Origin: Microcoleus sp. EPA2
Lineage (GTDB): Bacteria; Cyanobacteriota; Cyanobacteriia; Cyanobacteriales; Microcoleaceae
Length of the DNA stretch: 64,000 bases
Reading direction: 5' to 3'
NCBI GenBank assembly: GCA_020882975.1
Contig: JAHRFD010000001.1
Coordinates: 104,336 to 168,335, forward strand
Below the pieces are notes generated by a model. The model ran no database searches and had not been told where the DNA came from. It was given only the letters and a program-made list of their open reading frames with translations. The position numbers and the translations under genes were made by a program. How positions within the stretch are numbered: the stretch's first letter is position 1; every line of letters begins with the position of its first letter. This document shows, piece by piece, positions 24,311-63,995 of this stretch.

Positions 24311-24327
24311 CATAACTACAAAAACCC

Positions 24328-35709: not shown

Positions 35710-35763
35710 TTTTGGCTAATTGCTAAATAATGGGGCACAAATAAATGTAACCTAACAAAGAGC

Positions 35764-35797: not shown

Positions 35798-35846
35798 GGA
35801 TGAGTGAATACGTGCTTTAGCCCTTTGTGCATCTAAAATTTACGCT

Positions 35847-45730: not shown

Positions 45731-45755
45731 TTCATTATTCAATTATATAAATAAT

Positions 45756-47561
45756 ATGACTTACCGCTCCAACAAACTACTTATATTTATAGTCATTTCT
45801 GCATTTTTATTGTTAGGAATGCCAGCCAAAGCAACTGCGAGTAAAGTTGAAAATTCCCTCTCAAATATTGATAATTTAGAAATCCCCAACCCCCAAAACT
45901 TACCCACAGAAATCGATCGCCCTTCCCAACTGAGCCAACTCCCCAACCCCATTCAACCCAGAGAACCGGAATTACCAACTCCTCAACCACCACAACCCCT
46001 ACCGCCATCTCCCCTCCAACCTACTAGCCCAACACCCGTTGAGGGCGAAGTGAGACCAGATATACCGGGTACAATTAGAGTCGATCGCTTTGAATTTGAG
46101 GGAAACACAGCCTTTAGCGATCGCGAACTGACAGAAATCACTAAATCCTACGTGGGTAGGGAAATCACCTTCGCGGAACTGATCGCAGCGGAAGCAGCAG
46201 TAACTCAAAAATACTTAGCAGCGGGATATCTCAATTCCGGTGCGGTAATTCCCGCCAACCAAACCTTTCCCAGAGATGGCGCAGTGGTTAAAATTCAGAT
46301 TGTCGAAGGGGGAGTAGAAGAAATTGCAATTACTGGCAACCGTCGGCTAAAGTCAAGTTATCTGCGATCGCGCCTCGCCATCGCTACGGGGAGGCCGCTA
46401 AATCGCGATCGACTGCTGTCCGCCTTGCAAATGCTGCAACTAGACCCCTTAATTGCCAATATTTCCGCCGAATTGCAAGCCGGAAGCCGCCCCGAAAAAA
46501 GTCGCTTAGAAGTCCGAGTCAAAGAAGCAGATAGCTTTAGTGGGGAAGTCTTTGCAGACAACAATCGATCGCCAAGCGTCGGCAGTTTTCGGCGTGGAGT
46601 GGAAATCAATCAAGCCAATTTGCTCGGTTTGGGCGATGGGCTGGAGGTATCCTACGCTAACACTGATGGTAGCAATGAATTCAACGGCAGCTATACAGTT
46701 CCAGTCAATCCCCACAACGGCACAATTCGGTTGGCGGTGGGTGCTGCTAGCACGAATATTATTGAGGAACCCTTTGATAATGCTGGGATTGAGGGAAAGT
46801 CGCGCACTTACGAATTAACTTACCGCCAGCCGATTCTGGAAAAGCCCGATCGCAACTTGGCTGTGGGAGTAACATTATCGCGGCAAGAAAGCAATACATT
46901 CTTGCAGGGTGAAAGATTTCCGCTGTCGCAGGGTGCAAACGATCGCGGCCAAACCCGTGTTTCTGCTGTCCGCTTTTTTCAAGAATACGTGCAACGTAGT
47001 TCCAATCAAGTGTTTGCAGCGCGATCGCAATTCTCCGTTGGTACTAATTTGTTGGGCGCTACTGTCAATGATAGCGGGCCCGATAGTCGGTTTCTGGCGT
47101 GGCGCGGACAAGCCCAATACGTGCGACTGCTAGCACCAGAAACCTTGCTGATTGTACGTTCTGACATTCAATTAGCCGATCGCTCTTTGCTTTCTCTCGA
47201 ACAAATCGGGATCGGTGGCGTGCAGAGTGTACGCGGATATCGCCAAGATTTGCTGTTGACTGATAGCGGTGCGATCGCCAGTGCGGAAGTGCGTATCCCC
47301 GTGTGGCGAGTGCCACAAGTCAAAGGATTGTTGCAGGTGGCTCCATTTATCGATTTGGGAGTAGGCTGGAACCATTCTGGCGAAAAAGCTAATCCTGATT
47401 CTGACCAGCTTCTGGGCGCAGGTGTGGGGCTGTTGTGGCAAATGGGCGATCGGTTTAACGCGCGTCTAGATTATGGTATTCCGTTGATAAATGTCGGAGG
47501 GGGCGATCGAACTTTTCAGGAAAAGGGCATCTACTTTAGAGTCAATTATTTTGCGTTTTAA
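45756..47561 (+). CDS. TpsB outer-membrane transporter (ShlB/FhaC/HecB family)
   Basis: 601 residues from ATG 45756; a longer frame to 45663 runs into the repeat and is rejected. A signal peptide (LLIFIVISAFLLLGMPAKA) and Pro-rich linker are followed by two POTRA domains (IRVDRFEFEGNTAFSDRELT and VEEIAITGNRRLKSSYLRS) and a 16-strand barrel ending in YFRVNYFAF with a terminal Phe, the Bam signal. IGGVQSVRGYRQD carries the VRGY motif of the barrel lid loop. It exports haemagglutinin-type TpsA proteins, of which two and a fragment lie downstream (49003-52608 and 59412-63995). Confidence 0.94.
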   Translation: MTYRSNKLLIFIVISAFLLLGMPAKATASKVENSLSNIDNLEIPNPQNLPTEIDRPSQLSQLPNPIQPREPELPTPQPPQPLPPSPLQPTSPTPVEGEVRPDIPGTIRVDRFEFEGNTAFSDRELTEITKSYVGREITFAELIAAEAAVTQKYLAAGYLNSGAVIPANQTFPRDGAVVKIQIVEGGVEEIAITGNRRLKSSYLRSRLAIATGRPLNRDRLLSALQMLQLDPLIANISAELQAGSRPEKSRLEVRVKEADSFSGEVFADNNRSPSVGSFRRGVEINQANLLGLGDGLEVSYANTDGSNEFNGSYTVPVNPHNGTIRLAVGAASTNIIEEPFDNAGIEGKSRTYELTYRQPILEKPDRNLAVGVTLSRQESNTFLQGERFPLSQGANDRGQTRVSAVRFFQEYVQRSSNQVFAARSQFSVGTNLLGATVNDSGPDSRFLAWRGQAQYVRLLAPETLLIVRSDIQLADRSLLSLEQIGIGGVQSVRGYRQDLLLTDSGAIASAEVRIPVWRVPQVKGLLQVAPFIDLGVGWNHSGEKANPDSDQLLGAGVGLLWQMGDRFNARLDYGIPLINVGGGDRTFQEKGIYFRVNYFAF

Positions 47562-47655
47562 ATTTGTAGGTTGGGTTGAGTGCGATCGAACCCTACGCTT
47601 CGCCTCGCCCAACACTTCTCAAAATTCTGATTTATGGCTATTAAAAGTTTATTGT

Positions 47656-47703
47656 CCGAGATTGATATTATCAACTAAAAATAGTTGATAATATCAATCT
47701 CGG
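47656..47703. repeat. Perfect 22-bp hairpin with AAAA loop
   Basis: Bases 47656-47677 (CCGAGATTGATATTATCAAC then TA) are the exact complement of 47682-47703. It lies between convergent genes and could terminate both; its length and perfection are more like a mobile palindrome. It ends 8 bp from the stop of the truncated ClpP frame. Confidence 0.93.
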
Positions 47704-47710
47704 TTGCACA

Positions 47711-48166
47711 TTATCTATTCGATCTGAGTGAGACTATAGTATCATATATAGCCATACCCGATGTTACTGAACCCCCAGGGGAATTTATGTATAGATAAAT
47801 ATCTTTTCCTGGTGCTTGAGAATCTAGGTAAAGCAATTGAGCTACAACTGTTCTTGCCAAATCATCATTTATAGGTTGACTAATGATTACAATCCTTTTC
47901 TTAAGTAGTCCCTCAATAGTTTTCTTATCCGAATTACAGATAGCTGTGTTTGTAGTATAGGTATTTGGGCTCTGAGCTAGTTCTAAGCTTATTTCACCCC
48001 CCTTTAAAGTATCAGCCATCGCTCTATCAAGATTGAAAACAAAAATAACAATTCCCGTAAAACTGGGATAGAAAAATAACAGAAAATATCTAAAATGCTT
48101 CTTCTTAATTAAGCTGCTCATAGTGCAAAACCTTATTGCTTTATGGTTTGGATTTAGTGGAAGCAT
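47711..48166 (-). pseudogene. Truncated ClpP-like protease with added membrane segment
   Basis: 151 residues, ATG start. Residues about 20-45 form a membrane segment ([20 protein letters not shown]). From about residue 86 it matches Clp[21 protein letters not shown], then [20 protein letters not shown] and [17 protein letters not shown]. It stops after IVSLRSNR, before the catalytic Ser and His of ClpP, so it cannot be proteolytic. It is either a remnant or a dominant-type partner. A perfect hairpin touches its 3' end. Confidence 0.75.
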
Positions 48167-48193
48167 TAATTGACGACTATTTCTACTGACGCT

Positions 48194-48520
48194 TTAAACT
48201 GTCCAATCTTCGATCGATAACCCTGCTACTTTAGCAAAATCTCTATGATTACGGCTTAACAAAATTAACCCACGGAACATTGCAATTGCCGCGATCCGAG
48301 CATCCATCTTTGCCAGTTGAATCCCTTTCACTACGTCATCCGGGTTACGAGCACGATTAATATAAGCGTGACAGCCAAGCATCTGTTCATGAAACGTTAC
48401 AGTCGATACGGCAAAATCTGATAGCGGGTACTGAGCCATGCGCGTCGAAAGGTTGCTAAAATCTCTCCCTGCTTGACGTTGAAGAATACTCAGATGATCT
48501 GTATCCAGTAAATATTTCAT
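48194..48520 (-). CDS. PIN-domain VapC-type toxin with internal deletion
   Basis: 108 residues, ATG start. It keeps LLDTDHLSILQR (first acidic), STVTFHEQMLGCHAYINRAR (Glu), KMDARIAAIA (Asp) and NHRDFAKVAGLSIEDWT. Compared with family members of about 140-147 residues it lacks about 37 residues between DVVKG and IQLAKMDAR, where the helical middle of the PIN fold normally lies. The frame is kept. It overlaps the antitoxin by 4 bp (ATGA). The toxin is probably inactive or altered. Confidence 0.75.
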   Translation of the reverse strand: MKYLLDTDHLSILQRQAGRDFSNLSTRMAQYPLSDFAVSTVTFHEQMLGCHAYINRARNPDDVVKGIQLAKMDARIAAIAMFRGLILLSRNHRDFAKVAGLSIEDWTV

Positions 48521-48732
48521 AGCTCATCTTGAGCTTCGAGGAGAGACTCATCCCCTTGGCGAATCGCTCGTCCATAGGCAAGTACCTCCTCAAAGGCAGG
48601 TTCATCTTTGAAAGACCCTATAATTTGTTGCAACCAATTCGTCGGTCCAGATGCCACAATTTGCTTCTGCAACTGGGCGATCGCTGCTTCCACTGCTGCA
48701 AGCCGTTCCTCTAAAGAAGTGTTAATAGCCAT
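48517..48732 (-). CDS. VapB-type antitoxin of the PIN toxin
   Basis: 71 residues, ATG start. It begins with a short coiled coil (SLEERLAAVEAAIAQLQKQI), then WLQQIIGSFKDEPAFEEVLA and YGRAIRQGDE. The last part is the toxin-binding tail common in these antitoxins (FEEVLAYGRAIRQ). Its stop overlaps the toxin start by 4 bp. It would bind and silence the PIN protein and repress the operon. Confidence 0.82.
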   Translation of the reverse strand: MAINTSLEERLAAVEAAIAQLQKQIVASGPTNWLQQIIGSFKDEPAFEEVLAYGRAIRQGDESLLEAQDEL

Positions 48733-48772
48733 TTGAGTTTCCCTAATTAATCCTTCCTATTCTAAAGTAATT

Positions 48773-48970
48773 TTATGCGGATAAGGTCGCAGTCATAAAC
48801 CGACGCTCACGGTCAGCAGCATAAGCAATGCAGGCTTTTAAATCTTCTCGCGTCAAATCGGGGAAATCATCTAGAATTTCTGCTTCGGTCATCTCGGAAG
48901 CCAGATATTCAAGCACTTCATAAACCGTAATTCGCAAGCCACGTACACAAGGCTTACCAAAAAACTGGGT
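48773..48970 (-). pseudogene. DUF433-family antitoxin gene lacking its start
   Basis: The frame reads GKPCVRGLRITVYEVLEYLA, then SEMTEAEILDDFPDLTREDL and KACIAYAADRERRF to a TAA at 48773-48775. This is the DUF433 core. Going upstream, homology ends at GKPC and a TAG (48971-48973) interrupts the frame; no start codon exists. About 10-20 N-terminal codons are lost. The break is next to the hairpin 48972-49000. It is on the same strand as the VapBC pair. Confidence 0.8.
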
Positions 48971-48971
48971 C

Positions 48972-49000
48972 TAAAGCCCCGTCCTTAGAGGACGGCTTTA
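48972..49000. other. Bulged palindrome at a rearrangement junction (possible IS200/IS605 end scar)
   Basis: TAAAGCCCCGTCCT (48972-48985) pairs with AGGACGGCTTTA (48989-49000) with two extra C on the left. Hairpins of this look are typical of IS200/IS605-type element ends in cyanobacteria. Two unrelated broken genes end on either side of it. Confidence 0.6.
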
Positions 49001-49002
49001 AT

Positions 49003-49401
49003 TTTCAAGGGGCGGTCACATTTAATGCTGCTGGGGTAAATCCCGCTCAAGGATTAGTTGAACTACCACAAAATGCGATCGATCGTGCCAGTTTAATCGC
49101 TGCAAATCCCTGCATTCAAGGGCGAGAGAACGAATTTAATGTGACTGGAAAAGGAGGAGTACCGTCCTCTCGGAGTGAACCCCTCAATAGCGATGCTAGC
49201 CCGTTTGCCTGGATCGATCCGGTTTTAGGGGAGAAAGCCGCGAGAAGTGATGCACCGAAGGTTTCCCCGTCACCTGACATTGTTCCGGCTGAAGGTTGGG
49301 TACTGAATGCTACGGGGAACGTGACTCTTGTTGGATACAATTCTGGTGGTGCGGTTTCTGCTCGTGGCGTAAAACCTAGAAGTGTTTGCATACCCCGATA
49401 G
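49003..49401 (+). pseudogene. C-terminal fragment of a haemagglutinin-type TpsA
   Basis: 133 codons in frame to a TAG. They match the end of the full gene at 49507-52608: GVNPAQGLVELPQNAIDRAS (GVNPAQGLVELPQNITNPSQ in the full copy), NPCIQGRENEFNVTGKGGVP, GWVLNATGNVTLVGYNS and SVCIPR. The N-terminal secretion domain is missing and the fragment starts abruptly at FQGAVTF 3 bp after the palindrome. It has no own start and is a remnant. Confidence 0.9.
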
Positions 49402-49506
49402 GTGTTCTTCACTGCTTTATGTCAATTGGGGTGCCACGAGCCAGCTCATAGTTGACTGTTGACTGGAAGTCAAACAACTGAAAACTTCTAAATATTTGGT
49501 GATACC

Positions 49507-52500
49507 ATGATTCTACTTGATAATTCCGATCGGCGAATTAACAGGATGGAAGCTATAGCGGTTCTCAAAAAAGTGAGGTATGCCCGATGCCCGATAACAC
49601 CTCATGTTACTGAGACAGGCTATAGATCTCGCCTATTTTATTCCCTGGTTTTTATTTGCTTACTACTCTTGCCCTCGAAAACCTGTGCCCAAATTACCCC
49701 AGACAATACTTTGGGTTCTGAAAGCTCTCGCACAGTTTCCGATACGATCGATAACTTACCAAGCGATCGCATTGAAGGCGGCGCAACACGAGGCTCAAAT
49801 CTCTTTCACAGTTTCCGAGAATTCAACATCCGTGAAGGCAGGGGAGCTTATTTTACCAACCCCAAAGGCATTACTAATATTTTCACCCGCGTCACCGGCA
49901 ACAATTCCTCCAATATTTTAGGCACATTAGGAGTCCAAGGAAACGCCAACTTATTTTTAATTAACCCAAAAGGAATTGTCTTCGGTCCTAACGCTCGGTT
50001 AGATTTACGGGGTTCATTTATCGGTTCAACTGCTGAAAGTATAGTATTTAATAACGGTTTTGAATTCAGCAGTACGAAACCCCAAATATCGCCACTATTA
50101 ACGGTAAATATTCCCGTAGGCTTGAGATTTCGAGATAACCCCGGTACAATTGTCAACCAATCAACAGCGACTGGAGTAGTAAACCAGCTACCAGCTTCGT
50201 CAGTCCCAATTCCAATTACCAATCAAGTCGGTTTAGCCGTAGACCCCGGTCAAACCTTAGCCTTAGTTGGTGGCGATATCCATGTTAATAGTGGTATATT
50301 AACAGCTAACAACGGACAAATATTCCTCGGTAGTGTGGCCAATTCCGGTTTAGTTAATTTTGGTTCAACTCCCTTGGGTCTAAGTTTTAATTATGACAAT
50401 ATTCAAAATTTCGGTAACATCAACATATCCGCAGGTAGCCTGATTAATACTAGCGGACAAGGAGGCGGTAAAATTGATATTAGAGGTGGAAATATTACCG
50501 TCAGTAATTCCAGAATTTATGGGCTGACCCTGGGCAATATTGATAGTAGAGGCATCGATATTAATTCCCAAAATTTGCAAATCAAGGATGGGACAAAAAT
50601 TTCTACATTCACCCTAGGAAATGGTGCGGGGGGAAATATCAACATCTTTGCTAGGGATTCAGTAGAGATGAGCGGACTGGGAGTAGAGGGTTATCAACAG
50701 GTTGTAATTAATTATTTAATATCAGGAACTGTAGACCCCTTTGACCCACAATTTGCTTTGTTTAATGGTACTTCGGGTAGTGGAGCTGGGGGCATTATTA
50801 CCATTGATACTGGTAGGCTGCTGATGCGTAATGGCCTCACCGGTAGTGGCATCACCCTTGGTGCTGGAAATGGTGGCAATCTCAATATCCGTGCCAATAC
50901 TTTTGAAATGGTGGGTTCTGGAATTAACAACGCCACAGCTAAAGATAGTACCGGTGCAGGAGGAAGTATTAATCTGGATCTTGAAAGGTTAATTATGCGT
51001 GATGGTTCTCTGCTGGGTAGCACGAGTTACAGCGACGGGCGATCGGGAAATATTAATGTGAAAGCTAGGGAATCTGTAGAATTGTCCAACACTGGACCGA
51101 GAACTGCTGTATCAACGGGAATCAGCACTTTGAGTATCGGTGCTAATGGAAATGCAGGAGATATTAACGTTGAAACCAAGCGATTGAGTCTTTCTGATGG
51201 CTCTGCTTTCACCTTGGGAACGGGTGTATTAGTGGGCAGGTTTCTGTTTTCCAGAAATGGCGGTCCCGCTGGAAATTTAACAGTTAGGGCGAGTGAATCA
51301 GTGGAAATTTCAGGGATTTCTCAGCTTTTGACTAGCGGGAATCAAAATGCTAGTGCCTTCACTTCCGCCACTTTGAGTTCCAGTCGGGGCGGGAATATCC
51401 GGGTTGATACGCCGAGGTTGACGGTGCGGGATGGGGGGATAATTTCTACGAGTTCTTTGGGTGTGGGAAATGTGGGTGATATTACGATTAATGCCGATCG
51501 CATCGAAGTAATTGGTAGTGGCAATAACGGTCTATTTATTAGTGAAATTGATGCTTCTGTGGGCAAAGTGTTTGGTAATAATGCCGAGGCGACAGCAAAT
51601 GCGGGTTCGGTGAATCTCAATACCCGTCAATTGAGCGTGCGGGATGGAGCGACGGTGACGGTTTTGGCTAGGGGAACTGGACGGGCTGGTAATATCAATG
51701 TGGTAGCAGATTCAATTTCTCTTGACAACAAAGGTCGTATTGATGGTACTACTGTCTCCGGTACGGGAGCGAATATTAACCTACAAGCACAAAGCATCCA
51801 GTTGCGGCGTGGTAGCCGAATTACTACCGATGCGGGTACTTCCGAGGGCGGTAATATTAACCTCCGAGGCGACATTCTAGTGGCTCTCCCAGGGGAAAAT
51901 AACGATATCACGGCTAATGCGCGCACGGCTCAAGGTGGTCGTGTTAATGTCAACGTACCCACTGTTTTGGGATTTCGAGCAGTGGGCCGGGAAGAGGTTA
52001 GAAGCAGTTTGGGGTTGACAGATGCTCAATTTGCACAGTTACAGGTAAGCCCTACTTCCTTGATTTCTACTAGCGATATTGCGGCTATTTCCCAAACTGG
52101 AGGTCCGGCTTTGCAAGGGACTGTCACATTTAGTTCTTCTGGGGTGAATCCTGCTCAAGGGTTGGTGGAATTGCCGCAAAATATTACCAATCCGTCGCAG
52201 TTAATTGCTACTAATCCCTGTCTCCAAGGGGCACAGAACGAATTTATTGTGACTGGTAAAGGGGGTGTGCCACCTAGTCCTAATGATACTCTCAGCAGCG
52301 AATCTGTGCCGTTTACATGGGTTGATTTTAGTCAGGGAAGAGTTACCCCCCCCTACCCCCCCCAAGGGGGGAATCCTGAAGCCAGAATTGCCCCCCCCTA
52401 CCCCCCCCAAGGGGGGAATCAAGCAGAAGGAAGTAGAATGTCTTCCAACTACTCTCAAGGGGGGAATGAAGAAGAGAAGAGGAAAGAAGTTGTTCCGGCG

Positions 52501-52608
52501 CAAGGTTGGGTGATGAATTCTCAGGGGGATGTGATGCTTGTTGGGTACAATTCTACACATACCACTTCACGGATTCTTCGGCAGAATCCTGTTTGTATAC
52601 CACGTTGA
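49507..52608 (+). CDS. Filamentous haemagglutinin-type TpsA protein
   Basis: 1033 residues, ATG start, with later in-frame ATGs. A hydrophobic signal (FYSLVFICLLLLPSKTCAQ, about 44-62) precedes the TPS secretion domain (LGSESSRTVSD, IEGGATRGSNLFHSFREFNI, GNANLFLINPKGIVFGPNAR). A beta-helical region of about 600 residues follows with repeats of GGNINI and VELSNTG types. The end NPCLQGAQNEFIVTGKGGVP then GWVMNSQGDVMLVGYNS is the signature of cyanobacterial members. It is exported by TpsB. Near the C-terminus it carries in-frame palindromic repeats (52345-52467). A broken copy precedes it. Confidence 0.93.
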   Translation: MILLDNSDRRINRMEAIAVLKKVRYARCPITPHVTETGYRSRLFYSLVFICLLLLPSKTCAQITPDNTLGSESSRTVSDTIDNLPSDRIEGGATRGSNLFHSFREFNIREGRGAYFTNPKGITNIFTRVTGNNSSNILGTLGVQGNANLFLINPKGIVFGPNARLDLRGSFIGSTAESIVFNNGFEFSSTKPQISPLLTVNIPVGLRFRDNPGTIVNQSTATGVVNQLPASSVPIPITNQVGLAVDPGQTLALVGGDIHVNSGILTANNGQIFLGSVANSGLVNFGSTPLGLSFNYDNIQNFGNINISAGSLINTSGQGGGKIDIRGGNITVSNSRIYGLTLGNIDSRGIDINSQNLQIKDGTKISTFTLGNGAGGNINIFARDSVEMSGLGVEGYQQVVINYLISGTVDPFDPQFALFNGTSGSGAGGIITIDTGRLLMRNGLTGSGITLGAGNGGNLNIRANTFEMVGSGINNATAKDSTGAGGSINLDLERLIMRDGSLLGSTSYSDGRSGNINVKARESVELSNTGPRTAVSTGISTLSIGANGNAGDINVETKRLSLSDGSAFTLGTGVLVGRFLFSRNGGPAGNLTVRASESVEISGISQLLTSGNQNASAFTSATLSSSRGGNIRVDTPRLTVRDGGIISTSSLGVGNVGDITINADRIEVIGSGNNGLFISEIDASVGKVFGNNAEATANAGSVNLNTRQLSVRDGATVTVLARGTGRAGNINVVADSISLDNKGRIDGTTVSGTGANINLQAQSIQLRRGSRITTDAGTSEGGNINLRGDILVALPGENNDITANARTAQGGRVNVNVPTVLGFRAVGREEVRSSLGLTDAQFAQLQVSPTSLISTSDIAAISQTGGPALQGTVTFSSSGVNPAQGLVELPQNITNPSQLIATNPCLQGAQNEFIVTGKGGVPPSPNDTLSSESVPFTWVDFSQGRVTPPYPPQGGNPEARIAPPYPPQGGNQAEGSRMSSNYSQGGNEEEKRKEVVPAQGWVMNSQGDVMLVGYNSTHTTSRILRQNPVCIPR
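52345..52467. repeat. CCCCCCC-AAGGGGGG repeats in frame within tpsA
   Basis: Two full copies (52345-52374 and 52390-52419) encode PPYPPQGGN and a degenerate third (52452-52467) encodes YSQGGN. The same palindrome is intergenic at 39232-39249 and 55300-55735. Confidence 0.92.
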
Positions 52609-52672
52609 AAGTCTGTTTTCTTCAACGGCAAATTCAGGTGAATTTAGGCAAATTACCAATTAACATTTACCT

Positions 52673-55288
52673 ATGAGATTTACTCGATCGCTCCGTCAAG
52701 CAATTTTGTTATTTTTAATTTCTTGTTGGCTGGCAATTGCCATTCCTCCTGTTGTTGCTCAAGTTCAGCCCAAAGATGGGATGCAGCTTGTTCGACAAGC
52801 TCGCAGTCTTTATGATGCGGAACGGTTTTCCCAGGTGGTGCCGCTTTTACAGCAAGCAGCGGTGGTGTTTGAGGGGAAAGGACAAAATCTGGATCGAGCT
52901 ACGGCTTTGAGCAATTTGGCTGCTACTTTTGGACAACTTAATGACTGGGAGCAGGCTGAAGTTGCAATTAATTCGAGTTTGTCGGTGGTGCGTCAGTTGC
53001 CGAAAACGATGGAACAGCAGCGGGTTTTGGGTCAAAGTCTGAATATTCAAGGACAATTGCAACTGGAACGGGGACGGACTCAGGAGGCGATCGATATTTG
53101 GACTCAAGCTGCTAAAATTTTTGAGGAAATTCAGGCTAAAGACCTGTTATTTCAAATTCATATTAGTCAAAGTAGGGCTTGGGAAACTCTGGGACTTTAT
53201 CCGAGAGCTTGCAAAGTTTTGTTGGATTCTTTTAAGTTGGAACACACAACTTGTGAGGTTTCAAGTGCTAGTTTGGCAAGTTTGAAAAATCAGCCCATTT
53301 CGCCGGAAAATGTTCGGGGAATTAATGCTTTAGGTAGGGTGCTGCGGGTTTTGGGAAAACTCGATCGCTCCCAGGAGATTCTTTTAGTAGGACTTGAAGC
53401 GGCACAAAAGTTGGGACTCCGACAAGAGGAGGCTCAAATCGATCTTAATCTTGGTAATACGGAACGGGCTAAAAGTAATATAGCTGGTTTAAGCCCTCAA
53501 CAACGGGATAATAGCGAGCGATCGGCTCTTTCGTATTATGTTCGATCGGCAGATAGAGGTGCGGGGGCATTGCCCCTAGAGATGCAGGCAAGGTTGAACC
53601 AATTGAGTCTGTTGGTAGAGCGCCAAAAGTGGTCGGAAGCAGGGGTTTTGTGGCGTTCGATCCAACCTCAAGTCGATGGATTGTCGTGGAATCGCGCTGG
53701 AATTTATGCTCGAATTAATCTGGCAGAAAGTTTGCTCAAATTGGATCGGTTTCCGATCGCGACTCCGGGTTTGAGGGATATTGACAAAATGCTCTCCGCA
53801 GCTTTGGAACCGGCAAACCGTTTGGGCGATAAGCGGATACAAGCTTATATTCTGGGAACTCGTGGGAAGGTGTACGAACTCCAGCACCAGTATTCTCTGG
53901 CTGAAACTATAACAATTCAAGCTTTGAGTTTAGCACCAGCATTTCAGTCTCCTGATATTGCTTATCAATTGTTGTGGCAACTCGGACGGATTAGCAAAGC
54001 CCAGGGCAATCTGGAAGGGGCGATCGCCCAATATACTCAAGCTGTGAATGTATTGTCTTCTCTCCGGGGAGATTTGGTGACAGTTAATCCAGAAGTGCAA
54101 TTTTCGTTTCGCGAAAGTGCTGAACCAGTTTATCGCCAATTAGTTGAACTGCTGTTGCAAGAGGAATCTCCCAGTCAAGATAAGTTAAAGCTGGCTCGCC
54201 AAACAGTTGAATCTTTGCAGTTGGCAGAATTGGATAACTTTTTTCGCGATGCTTGTGCTGATGCTAAACCAAAGTCGATCGAGGAAATCGATCCTAGGGC
54301 GGCGGTGATTTATCCGATTATTTTGAGCGATCGTTTGGAGGTGATTTTATCTATTCCTGGTAAACCCCTGCGTCGCTACAGCACTAAGAAGACTCAGGCA
54401 GATTTGGAAACTGCTTTCAGACAAGCTAAAAATGTCATCAGACCTGCTGGTTTTCCGCGAGATAGGTTGCAACCTGTTCAACAAGTTTATGACTGGTTAA
54501 TCCGCCCTGCGGAGGCAGATTTGACTGCTAGCGGGATTAAAACTTTAGTATTTGTACTGGATGGCTATTTGCGAAATTTGCCGATGGCGATTCTTCATGA
54601 CGGTGAAAGGTTTCTGCTGGAAAAATACAGCATTGCCTTGGCGCCGGGACTGCAATTGCTTGCTCCCAAACCTCTAAGCACCGTCAAGTTAAAAGTGTTA
54701 ACGGCCGCCCTCTCAGAAGCTCGTCAAGGCTTTGCGGCTTTGCCGGGGGTTACTGAGGAAATTCAGCTAATTGCAGATCGGATGCCAGCCACTCGACTGC
54801 TGAATCAAGAGTTTGTCAGTTGGCAGTTGCAAGCTCGAATTAAAGAGGTGTCCTACCCGATCGTGCATTTGGCAACTCACGGACAGTTTAGTTCCAATGC
54901 AGCGGATACTTTTATTGTGACTTGGGACCAGAAAGTGAATGTTAAGGAGTTCGATCGACTGTTGCGATCGCGCAGTGCCCAAAAACAACAGGCGATCGAA
55001 CTTTTGGTGTTGAGTGCTTGCGAAACTGCTTCGGGGGATAATCGCGCGACTTTAGGTTTGGCGGGGGCTGCAATTCGATCTGGTGCCCGCAGCACTGTGG
55101 CGACTCTTTGGCAAGTCAATGACGAATCTACTGCTATATTTATGGCTGAGTTCTATCGGCAACTGGCTTTGCCTAAAATTAGCAAAGTGGAAGCTCTCCG
55201 CAATGCTCAATTAACCCTGCTCAACAACCCACTGTATAAAAATCCCTATTTCTGGGCACCTTTTGTACTTGTGGGGAATTGGCAATAA
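52673..55288 (+). CDS. Secreted TPR-CHAT protein
   Basis: 871 residues, ATG start. A signal peptide (ILLFLISCWLAIAIPPVVAQ) is followed by about 500 residues of TPR-like helices. The CHAT domain fills about 590-871: IKTLVFVLDGYLRNLPMAIL, HLATHGQF (catalytic His736) and LVLSACETASGD (catalytic Cys783), then STVATLWQVNDESTAIFMAE. CHAT is a caspase-like cysteine protease fold. The exported, TPR-bearing type suggests proteolysis of a periplasmic or surface partner. It lies 65 bp downstream of tpsA, probably one operon. Confidence 0.93.
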   Translation: MRFTRSLRQAILLFLISCWLAIAIPPVVAQVQPKDGMQLVRQARSLYDAERFSQVVPLLQQAAVVFEGKGQNLDRATALSNLAATFGQLNDWEQAEVAINSSLSVVRQLPKTMEQQRVLGQSLNIQGQLQLERGRTQEAIDIWTQAAKIFEEIQAKDLLFQIHISQSRAWETLGLYPRACKVLLDSFKLEHTTCEVSSASLASLKNQPISPENVRGINALGRVLRVLGKLDRSQEILLVGLEAAQKLGLRQEEAQIDLNLGNTERAKSNIAGLSPQQRDNSERSALSYYVRSADRGAGALPLEMQARLNQLSLLVERQKWSEAGVLWRSIQPQVDGLSWNRAGIYARINLAESLLKLDRFPIATPGLRDIDKMLSAALEPANRLGDKRIQAYILGTRGKVYELQHQYSLAETITIQALSLAPAFQSPDIAYQLLWQLGRISKAQGNLEGAIAQYTQAVNVLSSLRGDLVTVNPEVQFSFRESAEPVYRQLVELLLQEESPSQDKLKLARQTVESLQLAELDNFFRDACADAKPKSIEEIDPRAAVIYPIILSDRLEVILSIPGKPLRRYSTKKTQADLETAFRQAKNVIRPAGFPRDRLQPVQQVYDWLIRPAEADLTASGIKTLVFVLDGYLRNLPMAILHDGERFLLEKYSIALAPGLQLLAPKPLSTVKLKVLTAALSEARQGFAALPGVTEEIQLIADRMPATRLLNQEFVSWQLQARIKEVSYPIVHLATHGQFSSNAADTFIVTWDQKVNVKEFDRLLRSRSAQKQQAIELLVLSACETASGDNRATLGLAGAAIRSGARSTVATLWQVNDESTAIFMAEFYRQLALPKISKVEALRNAQLTLLNNPLYKNPYFWAPFVLVGNWQ

Positions 55289-55299
55289 TTTTAGATCGC

Positions 55300-55735
55300 G
55301 GGGCATGGGGCATGGGGCAACCCCCCCCAGCCCCCCCTTGGGGGGAATTCAAGACGTCAAGGGTGGAGTGGAGGGGCATGGGGCAACTCCCCCTGCCCCC
55401 CCCAAGGGGGGAATTCAAGGAGCCAAGGCGGGTATTGGGCATGGGGCAACCCATTGGTGTCAACTTAACGTCAAACCGATAGTCCGACAGGGAATGAATT
55501 CCCTGTCTCAAAGCGAAAGTCCTCCCTATGAGGACTGAGAACAACACTTTTCAACTCATTAGTCCTCTTGAGAGGACTTTCGCTATTAGCCAGGGGTTTC
55601 AACCCCTGGCGGACTCGCGGACTCGCAGATGATCTACTTAAGTTGACACCAATGGGGCAACCCCCCCAGGCCCCCCAAGGGGGGAATTCAAGGAGCCAAG
55701 GGGGGAGTGGAGGGGCATGGGGCATGGCCTGGGGC
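55300..55735. repeat. Array of GGGGCATGGGGCAAC...AAGGGGGGAATTCAAGG units
   Basis: Units begin near 55304, 55374 and 55651. Each has GGCATGGGGCAAC, a CCCCCC(C)AAGGGGGG palindrome and GAATTCAAGG. The third is split from the others by the MITE-like element 55450-55656. Small frames over this region are artefacts. With the MITE it fills the 557-bp gene-free stretch 55289-55845, whose last part should hold the cruF promoter. Confidence 0.88.
55450..55656. mobile_element. MITE-like element with 19-bp terminal inverted repeats
   Basis: CCCATTGGTGTCAACTTAA (55450-55468) is the exact reverse complement of 55638-55656. Inside are several hairpins: GACAGGGAATGAATTCCCTG (then TC), AGTCCTC...GAGGACT twice and CCAGGGGTTTCAACCCCTGG. 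There is no coding capacity. It sits inside the GGGGCAAC repeat array. Confidence 0.9.
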
Positions 55736-55845
55736 ATCAATTGCCAATGCCAACTACCAAGTAACTCAAATACGCTTGGTTTTTTGTTAAAGTTTGTAAA
55801 CTGTTAAAAGTGCTTGACGCATTTGATATTTTTCCGAGGATTTCT

Positions 55846-56787: not shown

Positions 56788-56814
56788 GATCTAATCAGGA
56801 ATTTTACAGCTATT

Positions 56815-56851
56815 AAAAAAACCCGGTTTCTTAATGAAACCGGGTTTTTTT
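56815..56851 (+). terminator. Strong terminator between cruF and cruG
   Basis: AAAAAAACCCGGTTTC (56815-56830) pairs perfectly with GAAACCGGGTTTTTTT (56836-56851), ending in seven T. It belongs to the GAAACCGGGTTTC repeat family. Confidence 0.92.
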
Positions 56852-58132: not shown

Positions 58133-58152
58133 CCTAGGAGAGCATTTCTGTA

Positions 58153-58210
58153 GGGGCGGGTTTCACCAACAATCTTTCGTTCAGACTAACAATCTAAATA
58201 AACCCGCCCC
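58153..58210. repeat. GGGGCGGGTTT inverted repeat
   Basis: GGGGCGGGTTT (58153-58163) pairs with AAACCCGCCCC (58200-58210) around 36 nt. It lies 21 bp after cruG and may terminate it. It is one part of the 305-bp gene-free stretch 58133-58437. Confidence 0.78.
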
Positions 58211-58237
58211 GATCGCGACTGGGATGGGAATGATTTA

Positions 58238-58290
58238 ACCGCGAAGGCGCGAAGTACGCGAAGGAAGAGAAGAGAGAGTTTAATACAGGA
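58238..58290. repeat. TTAACCGCGAAGG repeat, single arm
   Basis: TTTAACCGCGAAGGCGCGAA followed by GTACGCGAAGGAAGAGAAG is the reverse complement of the 15702-15745 copy. Confidence 0.82.
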
Positions 58291-58365
58291 CGATGAAGAG
58301 AGGATTTTATATCAGCGGGCGAGGACTGTCTAACCAAGAGGCGATCGCAGCAGTAAAAAAAACTG

Positions 58366-58402
58366 GCAGAAAGCAGTATTTTGATGAAATACTGCTTTCT
58401 GC
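58366..58402. terminator. 16-bp hairpin downstream of rnhA
   Basis: GCAGAAAGCAGTATTT (58366-58381) pairs perfectly with AAATACTGCTTTCTGC (58387-58402) around TGATG. It lies 36 bp beyond the rnhA stop and between convergent genes. Confidence 0.75.
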
Positions 58403-58437
58403 TTTCTGGCAACTGACTAATAACTAATAACTAATAA

Positions 58438-59331
58438 TTAATCAACTGTACTTACGTGGTCTATGCGTTCCAATTGCCAGAGAATTTGATTTCCCTCGCG
58501 GCGCACCCGCGAAACTACCCAGTTTCGCCAAACCCAGTTGTCTCCACGACTGGTAACAGCACTGGCATTTACATCCATCAAGTCAGCTAATTCAGAACTT
58601 GTGATCAAGTAGCCTTTAGTGGCAACTTCATCGGCTATATGCAAGGTTTCGATCAGGTTTCGGAGGTCCTGAACCCTCACCTCGCGGGGCAAGTTCTCCA
58701 GAGTATCGGCAGTAGAATCCATCATGGCAGCATTGGAGATGAGAAGGTCAGAAGTTATGACATAGGATTCTATCGTTTTGTTACCAATTGTTTCCGTTTC
58801 ATCTGAAACATTTGTGTTTTCCGACTGTAGGGGCAGTGCCCCCGTGGCTGCCCCAACCCCTTTGTGTTGTTGCAGTTCGGGAACGAGATTCTGCGAAAAG
58901 CTGCGGGCGATTTCGTCGCATCTATCGTTATAGAAATCCCCAGAGTGACCCCGGACGTGTTCCCACTTCACTTGCCGGGAATTCAGCTTGTCTAGCAGGT
59001 GCCAGAGGTCTTGATTGACGACATCTTTGCCTGTGGAAGTTTTCCAGCCTTTGTTTTTCCAGCCTTGAATCCATTTGGTGATACCGTTTTTAACATACTC
59101 GCTGTCGGTGTAAAGGGTGACTGCTTCGGTTTGACCGGAATTGGCAAAAAACTCTAAGGCGGCGATCGCAGCCTGCATTTCCATGCGGTTATTGGTACTT
59201 TGGGACTGTGCACCTCCTAGTTCGTGACAGTTGCCATCGGCGAAGCAAACTACTGCGCCCCAGCCGCCTGGGCCTGGATTGCCGGAACAAGCGCCGTCTG
59301 TGTACAAGCTTTTGATTTGGGGAAGTGTCAT
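58438..59331 (-). CDS. rnhA: Ribonuclease HI with C-terminal extension
   Basis: 297 residues, ATG start. RNase HI fills residues 1-150: LYTDGACSGNPGPGGWG (first Asp), NNRMEMQAAIAAL (Glu), TLYTDSEYVKNGI (Asp) and VRGHSGDFYNDRCDEIA (His, Asp). It cuts RNA in RNA:DNA hybrids. A linker with GVGAATGALPLQ comes from a dispersed repeat. The last 110 residues (LIETLHIADEVATKGYLITS, SELADLMDVNASAVT, NWVWRNWVVSRVRR) look like a helix-turn-helix-type extension. The fusion makes it about twice normal length. Confidence 0.93.
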   Translation of the reverse strand: MTLPQIKSLYTDGACSGNPGPGGWGAVVCFADGNCHELGGAQSQSTNNRMEMQAAIAALEFFANSGQTEAVTLYTDSEYVKNGITKWIQGWKNKGWKTSTGKDVVNQDLWHLLDKLNSRQVKWEHVRGHSGDFYNDRCDEIARSFSQNLVPELQQHKGVGAATGALPLQSENTNVSDETETIGNKTIESYVITSDLLISNAAMMDSTADTLENLPREVRVQDLRNLIETLHIADEVATKGYLITSSELADLMDVNASAVTSRGDNWVWRNWVVSRVRREGNQILWQLERIDHVSTVD

Positions 59332-59411
59332 GGGCGAGTTAATCTATTTTTTAGAGGTATGTTGTTGCCAGATGTCATAATTTAAGAGAATCGCGATCGG
59401 ACCTAGATGCT

Positions 59412-62400
59412 ATGAAAAATGCCAACTTAAAGATTAAAAAGGTCTGTCTATTTATTTCTCCGTTTTCTTTGTTAATTTTTAATACTTTCGCCCAAGCCCA
59501 AACAGTCATCCCAGCGGCGGATGGTACTGGCACTAATGTGACACGCACTGACAACCGCTACGATATTGGTGGTGGCAGTTTGTCGGGGGACGGGGCGAAT
59601 CTTTTTCATAGTTTTCAGAAGTTCGGTATCCCGGAAGGTCAGGTTGCTAATTTTTTGACCAATCCAGCGATTCAAAATATATTAGGTCGCATTTCTGGCG
59701 GGGATGCTTCCCTAATTAATGGTTTAATTACTGTCACTGGTGGCAACTCTAATCTGTTTTTAATTAATCCTGCGGGGATAGTGTTTGGTCCCAACGCGAG
59801 TTTGAATGTGCCGGCGGCTTTCACTGCAACTACTGCTAGTGGGGTAGGTTTTGGTTCTAATTGGTTTAATGCTACGGGCATAAATGATTTTAGCACGCTA
59901 GTTGGTACTCCTAATGGTTTTTATTTTGGGGTGGCTCCACCGGGAAGTATTGTGAATGCTGCTAATTTGGCTGTGGCACCTGGCCAAAGTTTGGCTTTGT
60001 TGGGCGGTACTGTGATTAGTACGGGGAATTTGTCGGCACCGGGAGGTAACATTACTGTTGCTAGTGTGGGAAGTGGAAGTGCTATTCGCATTAGTCAACC
60101 AGGGCATTTGTTGAGTTTAGAAATTGCTACTGGTGGCAATTTACCGAATTCTCCCTTGCTTGCAAATCCTCTGTCTTTGCCGCAGTTGCTGACTGGTAGC
60201 GGTGTGAATGGTGCGACTGGTGTTGCTGTGGCGACTGATGGTACGGTGCGACTGGTGGGCTCTGGTTTGCAGGTGAATTCGGGGGATGTGGCGATCGCTA
60301 AAAGTAATCTTACCCCCATTTCTGATTTAACGGCGGCAAATGCTCGCCTCTGGGCCGCTAATAATCTCACATTAGATGGGGTTCAATTATACACAAGTGG
60401 TAACTTGACTTTGACCGCGGGAAATGCTGCGCAAGTGCGTGACAGTGCGACGCATCCGTTTTTGGCTCAGGCTGGGGGTAATTTATACATTCAGGGCGAT
60501 CGCACTATCGATATTCTGACTCAAAATGCGATCGGTGCTTTGGCTCTGGCTCCCCAATTTCAGGCGGGCGGCGCTTTGACTTTAGTTAGTAATGGCGTGA
60601 TTTCTGGGGATACTCACTTTGTTTCTGGTGGCAATTTTTCGATTCGTAATCTGTCAGGAATGCCGGGAAATTTTGTGAGTTTATTTGACCCGATTATTAG
60701 TTCTGAGGCTGATGTTTTTTTGGGAGATTATACTGGTGCTTCTCTGAAAGTGGAGGCTAAGGGAAGTATTGTGGCACAGGATATTACAATTACTCGCCCG
60801 GATACTGCCCTCGATATTGGAAATGTTAGTGCTGATTCCGATATTGCTATTTTAACTAGGACTCCGGCATTGATTTTGCGGGCTGGAGTTCGGAATTTGG
60901 CTAATACTCCGAATGTTCCTAATGCTGTTGAGGGGAGTTTTGATGATAATGAAACTACTTCTTTAGGTGAGGAGGCTATATTTAATCCGGGGATTATTAA
61001 CTCGACTCCCTTAATTATTGTAGATAATCTTTCTGCTGGGGGGCTGGTGAGTTTATCGGCACCGGGAACAGTCGCAACTAGAGATATTAATAGTGGAGAA
61101 ATTAAGGTCGAAAGCGGACAGGGTGTTGTGGTTGGTGGCCGATTGACTTCTAGTTCGACAATTAATATTCAGGCTGCTGATAATATTATCTTGACAAATG
61201 ACATTTCCCGTGGTGATGTAAATGGTAATGTGAGTTTCAACAGCAGTGGGGGTAGTATAGTCACTGGGGCGATCGATACGGGGAATTCTGGGGCGATCGA
61301 ACTTAGAGCTTTTGGAAATGTGAATTTTGGGAATTTACAGGGCACTAAGGTTGATGTTGCTAGTAACTCCGGGGAATTGGGAGTTTTGAGCGATCCTAAT
61401 GTCATAGTCCCTAATACTATACCAGTGGATATTGCAGCAACTACAAATATCAGTTTGAGGGCTTCTAGGGACTTAACGGTAGGTAATCTTAATGCTGCTA
61501 CTGTCAATGCTACCAGCAATACGGGCAATGTCACCACGGGGGCGATCGCTACTACTGGTGATGTCAGAATTTTAGCCAGACAAGTAATTAATACTGGGGT
61601 GGTAACTGTTAATTCTGTTGGGCTAAATTTCATTCCCACAGTCAATCTGGATGCTCAAACTAACATTGCTACGCCCTCTATTAATGCTCCCGCGGCCACC
61701 ATTGCTGTGAGAGCATCTAGGGACTTAAATATCGGGAATTTGCAGGGGGGGGCAGTTGATGTTAGTAGTGATGGGGGCCAAATTGCGATCGGCAATAGTG
61801 TGACAACTGGAAATATTAATGTTGCTGCTTCCGGTAATGTAAAATCAGGAATTTTGCAGGGACTTAGAGTTAATGTTAAGAGTGATTCTGGAAGTATTGA
61901 AACTGCCAATACTACTGCAACTCTAAATGTAAATTTAGCCGCAGCAGGCGATGTAAATGCAGCAATTTTGCGGGGAGTTGCAGTTGATGTTAACAGCAGC
62001 AGGGGGAGTGTTACGACTGGTAATATAAATGCTACCGAGACTGTGGGGGTTTTAGCGGGAAGGCAAATCACAGTAGGGCGTATAGATGTTAATTCTGTTG
62101 GGGGCGATCGCACTGCTACGGTAAATCTGAATGCTCGCAATGATATTAGTGTAGCATCGATTAATGCGACTGGAGGTACGGTGGCGATCGGCACTCCGGG
62201 TTTTGTGCGAATCACCAATTCTTTTTTAAACCAAAACGGTACTCCTGTTAGCATCTCAACTGTTGGTGCTAATCGACCAGGTTCCGTTACTATTAATCAC
62301 GGTGGCGCTAATACTAACCCGCCAACGCCTTTTGCGATCGGAGATGCCAGAATTAACGGTAGTGCCGCAGCGATCGATTCTGGCAATGTTAATATTATTC

Positions 62401-63995
62401 CACCAACACCAACACCACCAACACCAACACCACCACCACCACCAACACCAACACCACCACCACCAACACCAACACCACCACCACCAACACCAACACCACC
62501 ACCACCACCAACACCAACACCACTAACACCGCCAACACCATTAAATAGATTTTTATCGCTCTTTCCAGGGCCAAACCAAGCCTTAACACCAGAACAACTG
62601 CTAAATCAAAACATCATTTTGCGAAACATAGAAGCACCGCGACAAATGATAGTTGGACTCGAAAAAAACTTACCTCCCAAAGCTATCTTAGATTTCATCC
62701 GTTCAAATCCCCCAAATTTAGCCTTCCTGTCAGCATTTCGCAGCAACATCGGCAGTAACTTTGACCAAGGAAAACTCTCGGAAGGTATAGCTTTACTAGA
62801 CAAATCTTTCAGCCAAGAATACCAACAATATTTCGGCCTAAACTTCCCCGACATTGAAGACGAACTAATCTCCACCGAAGCAACTCAAAAAAAATTAGCA
62901 GCCCTCTCCGCAGAAACCGGTATTAAACCCAGTTTTATTTATCTCTTTTCCCGACCCGAAAAATTAGATTTAGTTTTAATTACAGCTTCAGGTTCTGTCA
63001 TTCACCAAACTGTGCCACAAGCTAACCGCAAAGAACTGATGCAACTTGTCAGTAAATTCCGGGAAGAAATTACCAAACTGGGTGCGCGGGGAACTACCAG
63101 TTATCTCCCCTATTCCCAACAACTTTATCAGTGGATAATTGCTCCTTTACAGCCAACTTTAAAAGAGCGGGGAATTGATACAATCTCATTCATCGCTGAT
63201 AAAGGATTGCGAGGCTTTCCTTTTTCCGCTTTGCACGACGGACAGCAATTTTTGGTGGAAAATTACAATATCAGTCTAATTCCCAGCGTTAGTTTAACCG
63301 ACACTCGTTACATTGATATTAGAAACGTTCAGGTTTTAGCCATGGGTGCGTCACAATTTTCTGAGTTGAAACCTTTGCCGGCAGTTCCTGCTGAAATAGC
63401 GGCTATTTCCAGAGATTGGCCGGGAATTAGTTTTCTGAATGAGGGCTTTACTTTGGAGAATTTGAGGCGACAGCATCAAAGTCGGCCCTTTGGGATTATT
63501 CACTTAGCTACTCATGGCGAATTTAAACCTGGATTACCAAGTAATTCTTTTATTCAGTTGTGGAATAGCCGACTGCAACTGGATCAATTGCGACAGTTGA
63601 GATTGAACGATCCCCAGGTAAATTTATTGGTTTTGAGTGCTTGTCGCACTGCGGTGGGAGATGAGGAAGCGGAGTTAGGTTTTGGCGGATTGGCGGTACA
63701 ATCTGGGGTGCAAACGGCCTTGGGGAGTTTGTGGTATGTGAGTGATGAAGGTACTTTGGGATTGATGAGTGAATTTTATCAACAGTTGAAGACTGCGCCA
63801 ATTAGGGCGGCCGCCCTGCGAAAAGCGCAAATTGCAATGTTGCGAGGAGATGTGCGTTTGGAGGGTGGTCAATTGCGGGGTTCGAGTCGGGGTGGAGGGG
63901 TGGATTTACCACCGTCGCTGCGAGGTTTTGCAGATACAAATTTGTCCCATCCTTTTTATTGGTCGGCTTTTGTGATGGTTGGAAGTCCTTGGTGA
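59412..63995 (+). CDS. TpsA haemagglutinin fused to a C-terminal CHAT protease
   Basis: 1527 residues, ATG start. A signal peptide (VCLFISPFSLLIFNTFAQA) leads to the TPS secretion domain (GTGTNVTRTDNRYDIGGGS, DGANLFHSFQKFGIPEG, NLFLINPAGIVFGPNASL). A long beta-helical region follows to about 990, then a Pro/Thr linker (62401-62537). The last 300 residues are CHAT: GIDTISFIADKGLRGFPFSA, HLATHGEF (His1368) and LVLSACRTAVGDEEAELGFG (Cys1411), then TALGSLWYVSDEGTLGLMSE. All parts are in one frame and end at TGA. TpsB at 45756 is the candidate exporter. The combination would display a caspase-like protease at the cell surface. Confidence 0.93.
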   Translation: MKNANLKIKKVCLFISPFSLLIFNTFAQAQTVIPAADGTGTNVTRTDNRYDIGGGSLSGDGANLFHSFQKFGIPEGQVANFLTNPAIQNILGRISGGDASLINGLITVTGGNSNLFLINPAGIVFGPNASLNVPAAFTATTASGVGFGSNWFNATGINDFSTLVGTPNGFYFGVAPPGSIVNAANLAVAPGQSLALLGGTVISTGNLSAPGGNITVASVGSGSAIRISQPGHLLSLEIATGGNLPNSPLLANPLSLPQLLTGSGVNGATGVAVATDGTVRLVGSGLQVNSGDVAIAKSNLTPISDLTAANARLWAANNLTLDGVQLYTSGNLTLTAGNAAQVRDSATHPFLAQAGGNLYIQGDRTIDILTQNAIGALALAPQFQAGGALTLVSNGVISGDTHFVSGGNFSIRNLSGMPGNFVSLFDPIISSEADVFLGDYTGASLKVEAKGSIVAQDITITRPDTALDIGNVSADSDIAILTRTPALILRAGVRNLANTPNVPNAVEGSFDDNETTSLGEEAIFNPGIINSTPLIIVDNLSAGGLVSLSAPGTVATRDINSGEIKVESGQGVVVGGRLTSSSTINIQAADNIILTNDISRGDVNGNVSFNSSGGSIVTGAIDTGNSGAIELRAFGNVNFGNLQGTKVDVASNSGELGVLSDPNVIVPNTIPVDIAATTNISLRASRDLTVGNLNAATVNATSNTGNVTTGAIATTGDVRILARQVINTGVVTVNSVGLNFIPTVNLDAQTNIATPSINAPAATIAVRASRDLNIGNLQGGAVDVSSDGGQIAIGNSVTTGNINVAASGNVKSGILQGLRVNVKSDSGSIETANTTATLNVNLAAAGDVNAAILRGVAVDVNSSRGSVTTGNINATETVGVLAGRQITVGRIDVNSVGGDRTATVNLNARNDISVASINATGGTVAIGTPGFVRITNSFLNQNGTPVSISTVGANRPGSVTINHGGANTNPPTPFAIGDARINGSAAAIDSGNVNIIPPTPTPPTPTPPPPPTPTPPPPTPTPPPPTPTPPPPPTPTPLTPPTPLNRFLSLFPGPNQALTPEQLLNQNIILRNIEAPRQMIVGLEKNLPPKAILDFIRSNPPNLAFLSAFRSNIGSNFDQGKLSEGIALLDKSFSQEYQQYFGLNFPDIEDELISTEATQKKLAALSAETGIKPSFIYLFSRPEKLDLVLITASGSVIHQTVPQANRKELMQLVSKFREEITKLGARGTTSYLPYSQQLYQWIIAPLQPTLKERGIDTISFIADKGLRGFPFSALHDGQQFLVENYNISLIPSVSLTDTRYIDIRNVQVLAMGASQFSELKPLPAVPAEIAAISRDWPGISFLNEGFTLENLRRQHQSRPFGIIHLATHGEFKPGLPSNSFIQLWNSRLQLDQLRQLRLNDPQVNLLVLSACRTAVGDEEAELGFGGLAVQSGVQTALGSLWYVSDEGTLGLMSEFYQQLKTAPIRAAALRKAQIAMLRGDVRLEGGQLRGSSRGGGVDLPPSLRGFADTNLSHPFYWSAFVMVGSPW
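62401..62537 (+). repeat. Pro-Thr-Pro microsatellite linker
   Basis: Tandem CCACCAACACCAACACCA-type units encode about 46 residues of PTPPPPTPTP between the beta-helix and CHAT domains. The repeat keeps the frame. A His/Gln-rich frame through it is a shadow. Confidence 0.93.

Follow-up and report, generated by a model that had tools for sequence, protein, structure and literature searches.

The genome of the cyanobacterium Microcoleus sp. EPA2 carries, within a 64,000-nucleotide stretch of contig JAHRFD010000001.1 (positions 104,336 to 168,335 of the forward strand, analysed as a whole and referred to here as the window), a group of genes that connect two-partner secretion (TPS) with caspase-like CHAT domains. 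Open reading frames (ORFs) and Pfam searches place a TpsB exporter, a TpsA exoprotein, a TPR-CHAT protein and a single chain combining a TPS domain with a CHAT domain, the TPS-CHAT fusion, all on the plus strand. These four components had been named in a first-pass annotation made from the letters alone, the TPR-CHAT as an exported protein, and Pfam matches now support each of them. The features are summarised in Table 1.

Table 1. Features of the TPS and CHAT genes in the window (window coordinates; aa, amino acids).
Feature	Position	Strand	Evidence
TpsB, POTRA and Omp85-type barrel	45663..47561	+	ShlB 113 bits, POTRA_2 60.9 (Pfam)
Remnant of a second TpsA, limited to the C-terminal part, whose domain retains its two cysteines	49003..49401	+	
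TpsA, 1033 aa	49507..52608	+	TPS domain aa 61-324, 191.7 bits (Pfam)
Putative periplasmic anchor of TpsA: C-terminal domain with two cysteines, about aa 905-1030	52219..52596	+	
TPR-CHAT, 871 aa, signal-like start (by eye), TPRs and CHAT	52673..55288	+	CHAT 197.4 bits (Pfam)
CHAT domain of TPR-CHAT, aa 601-869	54473..55279	+	Pfam
TPS-CHAT fusion, 1527 aa	59412..63995	+	Pfam
TPS secretion domain of fusion, aa 37-232	59520..60107	+	PF05860 132.4 bits; TIGR01901 match
Repetitive stalk of fusion, variable; beta-helix inferred	60108..62399	+	sequence
Proline/threonine-rich linker of fusion	62400..62540	+	encoded by tandem repeat
CHAT domain of fusion, aa 1233-1525	63108..63986	+	232.4 bits (Pfam)
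His1368 codon, putatively catalytic	63513..63515	+	analogy with Csx29 H615
Cys1411 codon, putatively catalytic	63642..63644	+	analogy with Csx29 C658

The TpsB frame starts at 45663, position 45756 being a downstream methionine just ahead of a likely signal peptide, and TpsA and TPR-CHAT lie close together, the latter starting 64 bp past the TpsA stop codon. The window genes are not one operon, because TpsB is parted from TpsA by a ClpP-like fragment, further minus-strand ORFs and the C-terminal TpsA remnant, while a carotenoid gene, a glycosyltransferase gene and an RNase H gene part TPR-CHAT from the fusion, which lies 12 kb from TpsB. Thus, of the two-partner secretion/CHAT locus that had been proposed, the link itself stands and recurs across cyanobacteria, as described below, whereas its unity in the window does not. 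A tandem pair of TpsA genes precedes TPR-CHAT in the relatives L135, L137 and L141, and the ancestral set was therefore probably TpsB-TpsA-TpsA-TPR-CHAT, as judged by comparison of these sequences. A short hairpin-like stretch, seen by eye before the TpsA remnant, resembles the end of an insertion element, and the minus-strand ORFs between TpsB and TpsA may have arrived with it.

In the fusion, CHAT and TPS were the only Pfam families found at E<=0.01, and PF00656 (Peptidase_C14, orthocaspase/metacaspase) was not among them. The proline/threonine-rich linker noted in the first pass is underlain by a 15-bp tandem array at 62400-62530, and the matching linker of F4, a short paralogue, has a predicted local distance difference test score (pLDDT) mostly below 50. 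A sequence search of PDB chains with a CHAT profile yielded one spurious match to a repeat protein, and a fold search was needed instead. The AlphaFold model of residues 1063-1527 has a pLDDT of 89.7 and its fold matches the protease region of Csx29; DdvA was another fold match. Excerpts of a study on Csx29 (PMC10028731) place its catalytic residues H615 and C658 43 residues apart, and the spacing of H1368 and C1411 is equal to this. Judged from the model, the CHAT domain has the caspase fold of Csx29 and separase with a His/Cys dyad and is a predicted protease. A reading as a defence system was also tried: in PADLOC each of the three proteins tested had weak local BovA matches and one of them also a TPR match, and these were not accepted as indicating defence.

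The fusion is one of several in this genome, which in 6.26 Mb and 72 contigs yields 36 CHAT matches (including a few frames matched in two pieces), nine TPS matches and three TpsB matches, including the TpsB of the window. Five TPS-CHAT frames are complete (1527, 1549, 1710, 888 and 2945 amino acids, the 888-residue protein being F4), H1368 and C1411 are invariant in all five, and a sixth fusion is probably split across the ends of contigs C46 and C29. A second gene set, at L047, has the order TpsA-TpsB-TPR-CHAT, and the set that recurs is TpsB/TpsA/TPR-CHAT and not TpsB with the fusion. Contig C45 carries a solo CHAT whose start looks, by eye, signal-like.

A search with F4 across 146 genomes of the phylum found matches at E<=1e-25 in 53, where a match may be a fusion, a solo CHAT or a TPR-CHAT. 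All 53 belong to the class of the window, which accounts for 64 of the 146 genomes, and the 82 genomes outside the class gave no match (class membership being taken from table order). TPS and CHAT occur in one open frame in at least 25 of the 146, among the matches listed, and one fusion is carried by G089, a genome of 2.6 Mb. From a scan of named genomes, which gave 545 relatives, the 80 best loci were kept, every one with a cyanobacterial title; frames were classified with hidden Markov models built from the proteins of the Microcoleus genome itself, and frames open at the 3' end were excluded. Fusions were found in 49 loci of these 80, one frame, in L087, being cut at the locus edge. The named genomes and the other set may overlap, since L133 (G195) and L053 are on contigs of equal length (59549), and are not independent samples. 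Altogether 83 rows resembled the CHAT end of the fusion (F-type), 50 of them with TPS and CHAT together, 15 running off the 5' end, 10 short, and eight longer and without TPS in that frame; one of the eight, L160, comes from the second set of loci and scores nearly equally with both CHAT models. A search of plasmids (tblastn with F4) gave 51 records, and in no single place did any of them reach 80% coverage of F4; those listed, 15 in number, matched the CHAT half only, some being annotated 'CHAT domain-containing protein'.

Five loci have TPS in one frame and CHAT in another. Assembly gaps, seen as runs of N, occur in L053, L066 and L078 but are missing from L061 and L110. In the latter two the TPS and CHAT frames overlap, which could reflect a frameshift, an assembly error or phase variation. 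Phase variation of the frame-split loci was considered and is not claimed. Local amplification is suggested by neighbouring TPS-CHAT genes on the same strand in L087 and in L114 (with L086), from Oscillatoria sp. PCC 10802 and O. princeps RMCB-10.

A tree of 83 rows separates a clade F of fusions and solo CHATs (support 99/99) from a clade T of TPR-CHATs (96/99) that includes the TPR-CHAT of the window, and the two are sisters (100/100), separated (98/90) from ten further CHATs in the genome. Roughly one in two of the fusion and T rows was omitted from the tree, together with incomplete frames, frames of fewer than 450 amino acids, L054 and L078; the bootstrap is unsettled, long branches meet and the outer placement is rough. 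Solo CHATs fall within F in two places. Within T, L162 and L165 encode a TpsA fused to a TPR-CHAT and are, on their sequences, a second, independent fusion which, being confined to one genus, counts as one event. Two adjacent TPR-CHAT genes of the Microcoleus genome, L007 and L005 on contig C7, with single cysteines and signal-like starts, lie outside both clades and perhaps represent another exported CHAT group.

The dyad is kept in all 83 F-type and all 60 T-type rows (143/143), a count to be read knowing that the F set was found with two scan patterns, one of which includes the His and neither the Cys. The intact His/Cys CHAT of the first-pass annotation is confirmed by the five fusions of the genome and by these wider sets, and conservation of the catalytic residues in relatives was one of the points on which that annotation had staked its proposal. 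The result also bears on a reading in which CHAT serves as a folded plug and proteolysis is not needed. Its C-terminal position after a poorly ordered linker would suit a plug, but a dyad in 143 of 143 rows exceeds what a mere plug needs, and we consider this reading highly improbable.

The surroundings of TPR-CHAT genes were examined in 60 T-type loci of 57 genomes, comprising the best match per genome, except that of the window, and three second matches; 58 genomes of 244 searched gave matches. TPS or TpsB is near or fused in 38 of the 60 (a separate TPS in 32, TpsB in 18, both in 14, fused in two), lies within 1 kb or is fused in 29, and is on the same strand at <=300 bp or fused in 26. For the 40 T-type genomes in which TPS matches were counted, 24 have TPS either near (22) or as part of a fusion (2), where a Poisson model based on 384 TPS matches in 236 Mb predicts 3.0%; the binomial tail, about 1e-26, is not a true probability, since the genomes are related, yet the excess remains large.

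The 50 fusion frames have conserved ends and a variable middle. The TPS match spans 271 +/- 6 amino acids with a mean pair identity of 59% and the CHAT match 327 +/- 5 amino acids with 62%, where the spans, but not the identities, are partly set by the hidden Markov models. The stretch between them measures 1119 +/- 623 amino acids (range 239-2707), and 39 of the 50 frames hold a 40-residue stretch with >=20% proline.

These figures bear on the contact delivery, kin recognition and cell death that the first-pass annotation had suggested, and which would resemble contact-dependent inhibition: CHAT would be cleaved off and delivered into neighbouring cells, with kin protected by immunity. The fusions share with CdiA and other polymorphic toxins the gross layout of a TPS domain, a stalk and a C-terminal enzyme. 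Moreover, in excerpts of a survey of polymorphic systems (PMC3482391) caspase-like domains serve as toxins and processing proteases, and the Tox-REase-1 and Tox-Doc rows list the type V secretion system (T5SS) among routes and Caspase among proteases. In the same excerpts, however, the Tox-Caspase row names the type II, type VI and type VII secretion systems (T2SS, T6SS, T7SS) and the Photorhabdus virulence cassette (PVC) without T5SS, and neighbourhoods of T5SS toxins with TpsB are reported from proteobacteria, bacteroidetes, fusobacteria and negativicutes only (PMC3482391). The fusions also depart from the CdiA pattern of a variable C-terminal toxin behind a conserved N-terminal part, CHAT being as conserved as TPS while the stalk varies in length, and TpsB is rarely adjacent. 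A recurrent immunity-like gene was sought downstream of 65 fusion sites and none of the ten largest ORF groups occurred at more than six, although mutually unrelated immunity genes would be invisible to this test; the two most widespread groups, at 6/65 sites each, are near-orthologues with 48-98% identity, and one group of four sites reaches down to 26% identity but occurs on both strands. With the protease end conserved, the stalk varying and no widely recurrent immunity-like gene, the contact-toxin reading is not supported and we regard it as very unlikely. The suggested kin recognition and cell death are likewise not supported.

The same downstream survey touches a further possibility, that of an envelope sensor in which occupancy of the stalk switches CHAT on to cut a periplasmic or membrane regulator, the outcome being signalling and not maturation. 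Against it, no gene recurs widely on the downstream side, the side surveyed, and such a sensor seems to us decidedly unlikely.

The location of the CHAT domains is suggested by their cysteines. Exactly one Cys occurs in the last 270 amino acids of 77/83 F-type and 60/60 T-type rows (for the last 300, the F-type figure is weaker at 66/83 and the T-type figure again 60/60), and all 143 have Cys at the aligned catalytic position. For comparison, among 19 other CHAT frames of the genome, the ten that end in CHAT have 4-9 Cys in the last 300 amino acids, L005 and L007 have one each, and in the remaining seven, with 1-11 Cys, the last 300 amino acids are not a CHAT end. A candidate signal peptide is seen by eye in the window fusion, and a crude signal-peptide rule was passed by 55/58 unfused and 2/2 fused T-type proteins, 40/49 fusions, 7/10 short F-type frames and 2/8 other F-type frames; with 203/555 control proteins also passing, this is supportive only. 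From these sequence features the F and T CHATs look extracytoplasmic.

Ordinary TpsA proteins end differently. Among 43 TPS-only frames of more than 500 amino acids, 38, including the window TpsA, contain two Cys and no more within their last 200 amino acids; the five exceptions are four pieces of split fusions and L191, which ends early. The median distance of the final Cys from the end is 4 amino acids, and the two Cys are a median of 94 amino acids apart (35 measured). A motif of this two-cysteine domain is present in 34/39 ordinary TpsA frames, the positive control, and in none of the 83 F-type rows, whose C-terminus is formed by CHAT. According to excerpts of a review (PMC5422565), the C-terminus of HxuA, like that of HMW1, is expected to be periplasmic, a disulphide-bonded region locking it in the TpsB pore; by analogy, the two-cysteine end of the cyanobacterial TpsA is perhaps a similar periplasmic anchor.

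A functional tie between TPS and exported CHAT is very probable, because the two are paired both in cis and in trans, fusion has occurred twice separately, the clades are sisters and their CHATs mostly have a single cysteine. From the computed fusions, predicted fold, intact dyad, sister clades, neighbourhood and cysteine pattern we infer, with a probability of roughly 0.4, a clade of TPS-linked, extracytoplasmic, separase-like CHAT proteases on the periplasmic side of TpsB; their proteolytic activity, substrate and trigger are equally part of the proposal, and their probable task would be to mature or release stalks. In trans the clade would act as a signal-peptide TPR-CHAT, whose gene is often a neighbour of TpsA/TpsB; in cis, a TPS exoprotein would bear it as its C-terminal domain. 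In the latter case Sec would export the chain, the TPS domain would dock on a TpsB and threading of the stalk outward would begin, the disordered linker then spanning the barrel. CHAT would fold on the periplasmic side, in the position that the two-cysteine C-terminal domain has in ordinary TpsA proteins, plug the chain in place and, on a signal, cut its own linker or other envelope proteins; the cutting would mature or release surface stalks, much as periplasmic LapG does for CdrA. A more specific version is that of a self-releasing TPS exoprotein with its own anchor and scissors, in which the CHAT plug at the periplasmic mouth of TpsB frees the stalk on signal and the operon-encoded TPR-CHAT plays this part in trans for ordinary TpsA; taken as a whole, this version appears rather unlikely.

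Another reading places the enzyme outside the cell: the whole chain including CHAT would pass TpsB and act as a surface protease on the sheath, neighbouring cells, prey or nutrients, with the stalk setting a variable distance. This comes nearest to the surface display suggested in the first-pass annotation. Against it, CHAT occupies the place of the putative anchor of ordinary TpsA, and the sister TPR-CHATs and solo CHATs, with signal-like starts and no TPS domain, have no evident route past the periplasm. For these two reasons we prefer the periplasmic face and hold the surface protease to be somewhat unlikely.

Several observations weigh against the proposed periplasmic protease. TPS and TpsB are both absent from the DNA covered at 22/60 TPR-CHAT loci, some but not all of them near contig ends. 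The first-pass annotation had proposed a search for TPS-CHAT fusions with nearby TpsB in other genomes; the fusions proved plentiful, but TpsB occurs in the covered flanks (often short, 641 kb in total) of only 2/50 fusion frames, those of L121 and L126. Therefore, either the exporter has to work from afar, or passage of the chain across the outer membrane may not take place. A distant TpsB may serve such orphan fusions, and relaxed specificity has been reported for BcpB transporters in excerpts of PMC10449530. More than one Cys lies beyond residue 150 in 22/50 fusion frames, some as close pairs in the stalk. The crude signal-peptide rule was failed by 9/49 fusions, 3/10 short F-type frames and 6/8 other F-type frames without TPS, the control rate of passing being 37%. 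Finally, L162 and L165 keep the anchor motif with its last Cys lost at the junction to TPR-CHAT, and the likeness to the HMW1/HxuA anchor is a tentative one.

The separate parts of these proteins are known. As in TpsA exoproteins such as FHA, HMW1 and HxuA, the fusion has a signal-like N-terminus, a TPS domain with an NPxG-type motif (TIGR01901), a long repetitive stalk and a TpsB in the genome; it differs in that a CHAT end replaces the two-cysteine domain and usually no TpsB lies in the covered flanks. The best-known CHAT proteases act in cell division and development (HetF), in the Craspase complex of CRISPR (clustered regularly interspaced short palindromic repeats) systems and as separase. 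Relative to Csx29, the TPR-CHAT of type III-E CRISPR (Craspase), and to separase, the proteins described here are distinguished by a signal-like start or TPS domain, mostly one CHAT cysteine and a tie to secretion genes. CHAT belongs to clan CD and is not known to have the LapG fold. The likeness to LapG/CdrA is a mechanistic analogy only: in both cases a cysteine protease is tied to a TpsA, at a presumed periplasmic face (PMC5422565, in excerpt), and here the protease is fused to or encoded beside the TPS gene. The excerpts of that review also state that genes for TpsA maturation proteases seem to lie outside TPS operons (PMC5422565), contrary to the placing of a protease gene within TPS gene sets seen here.

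A search of the open-licence literature found, among the papers listed, none joining the CHAT domain with two-partner secretion or hemagglutinin terms. Automatic domain listings (Pfam/InterPro) surely show the TPS-CHAT architecture. The parts are thus known, while the combination is widespread in cyanobacteria and no paper on it was found in these searches. If the proposal is true, the conserved exported CHAT clade is a caspase-family envelope enzyme that could control surface display in cyanobacteria, and caspase-like genes in these organisms need not mean cell death. The idea is directly testable in culturable strains.

Other parts of the window hold features of separate interest. The ClpP-like fragment between TpsB and TpsA (151 amino acids, 47711-48166, minus strand) matches PF00574 over profile positions 8-75 of 182 and has a hydrophobic N-terminal segment, odd for ClpP; it is probably truncated. 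Next to it, a 108-residue ORF (48194-48520, minus strand) looks by eye like a PIN-type toxin, with no Pfam match at 1e-4, and small minus-strand ORFs adjoin. Three genes at 33711-36884 resemble an ergothioneine set, encoding a class II glutamine amidotransferase (GATase), a protein combining formylglycine-generating enzyme (FGE)-sulfatase with DinB, and a histidine methyltransferase. A 606-residue protein (30677-32497, minus strand) has six stretches of matches to the ChW (clostridial hydrophobic W) repeat, unexpected for a cyanobacterium, and at 22393-27630 (minus strand) a Tubulin_2-like protein of 1100 amino acids with a terminal zinc ribbon adjoins a protein kinase, which together may form part of a larger unstudied module.

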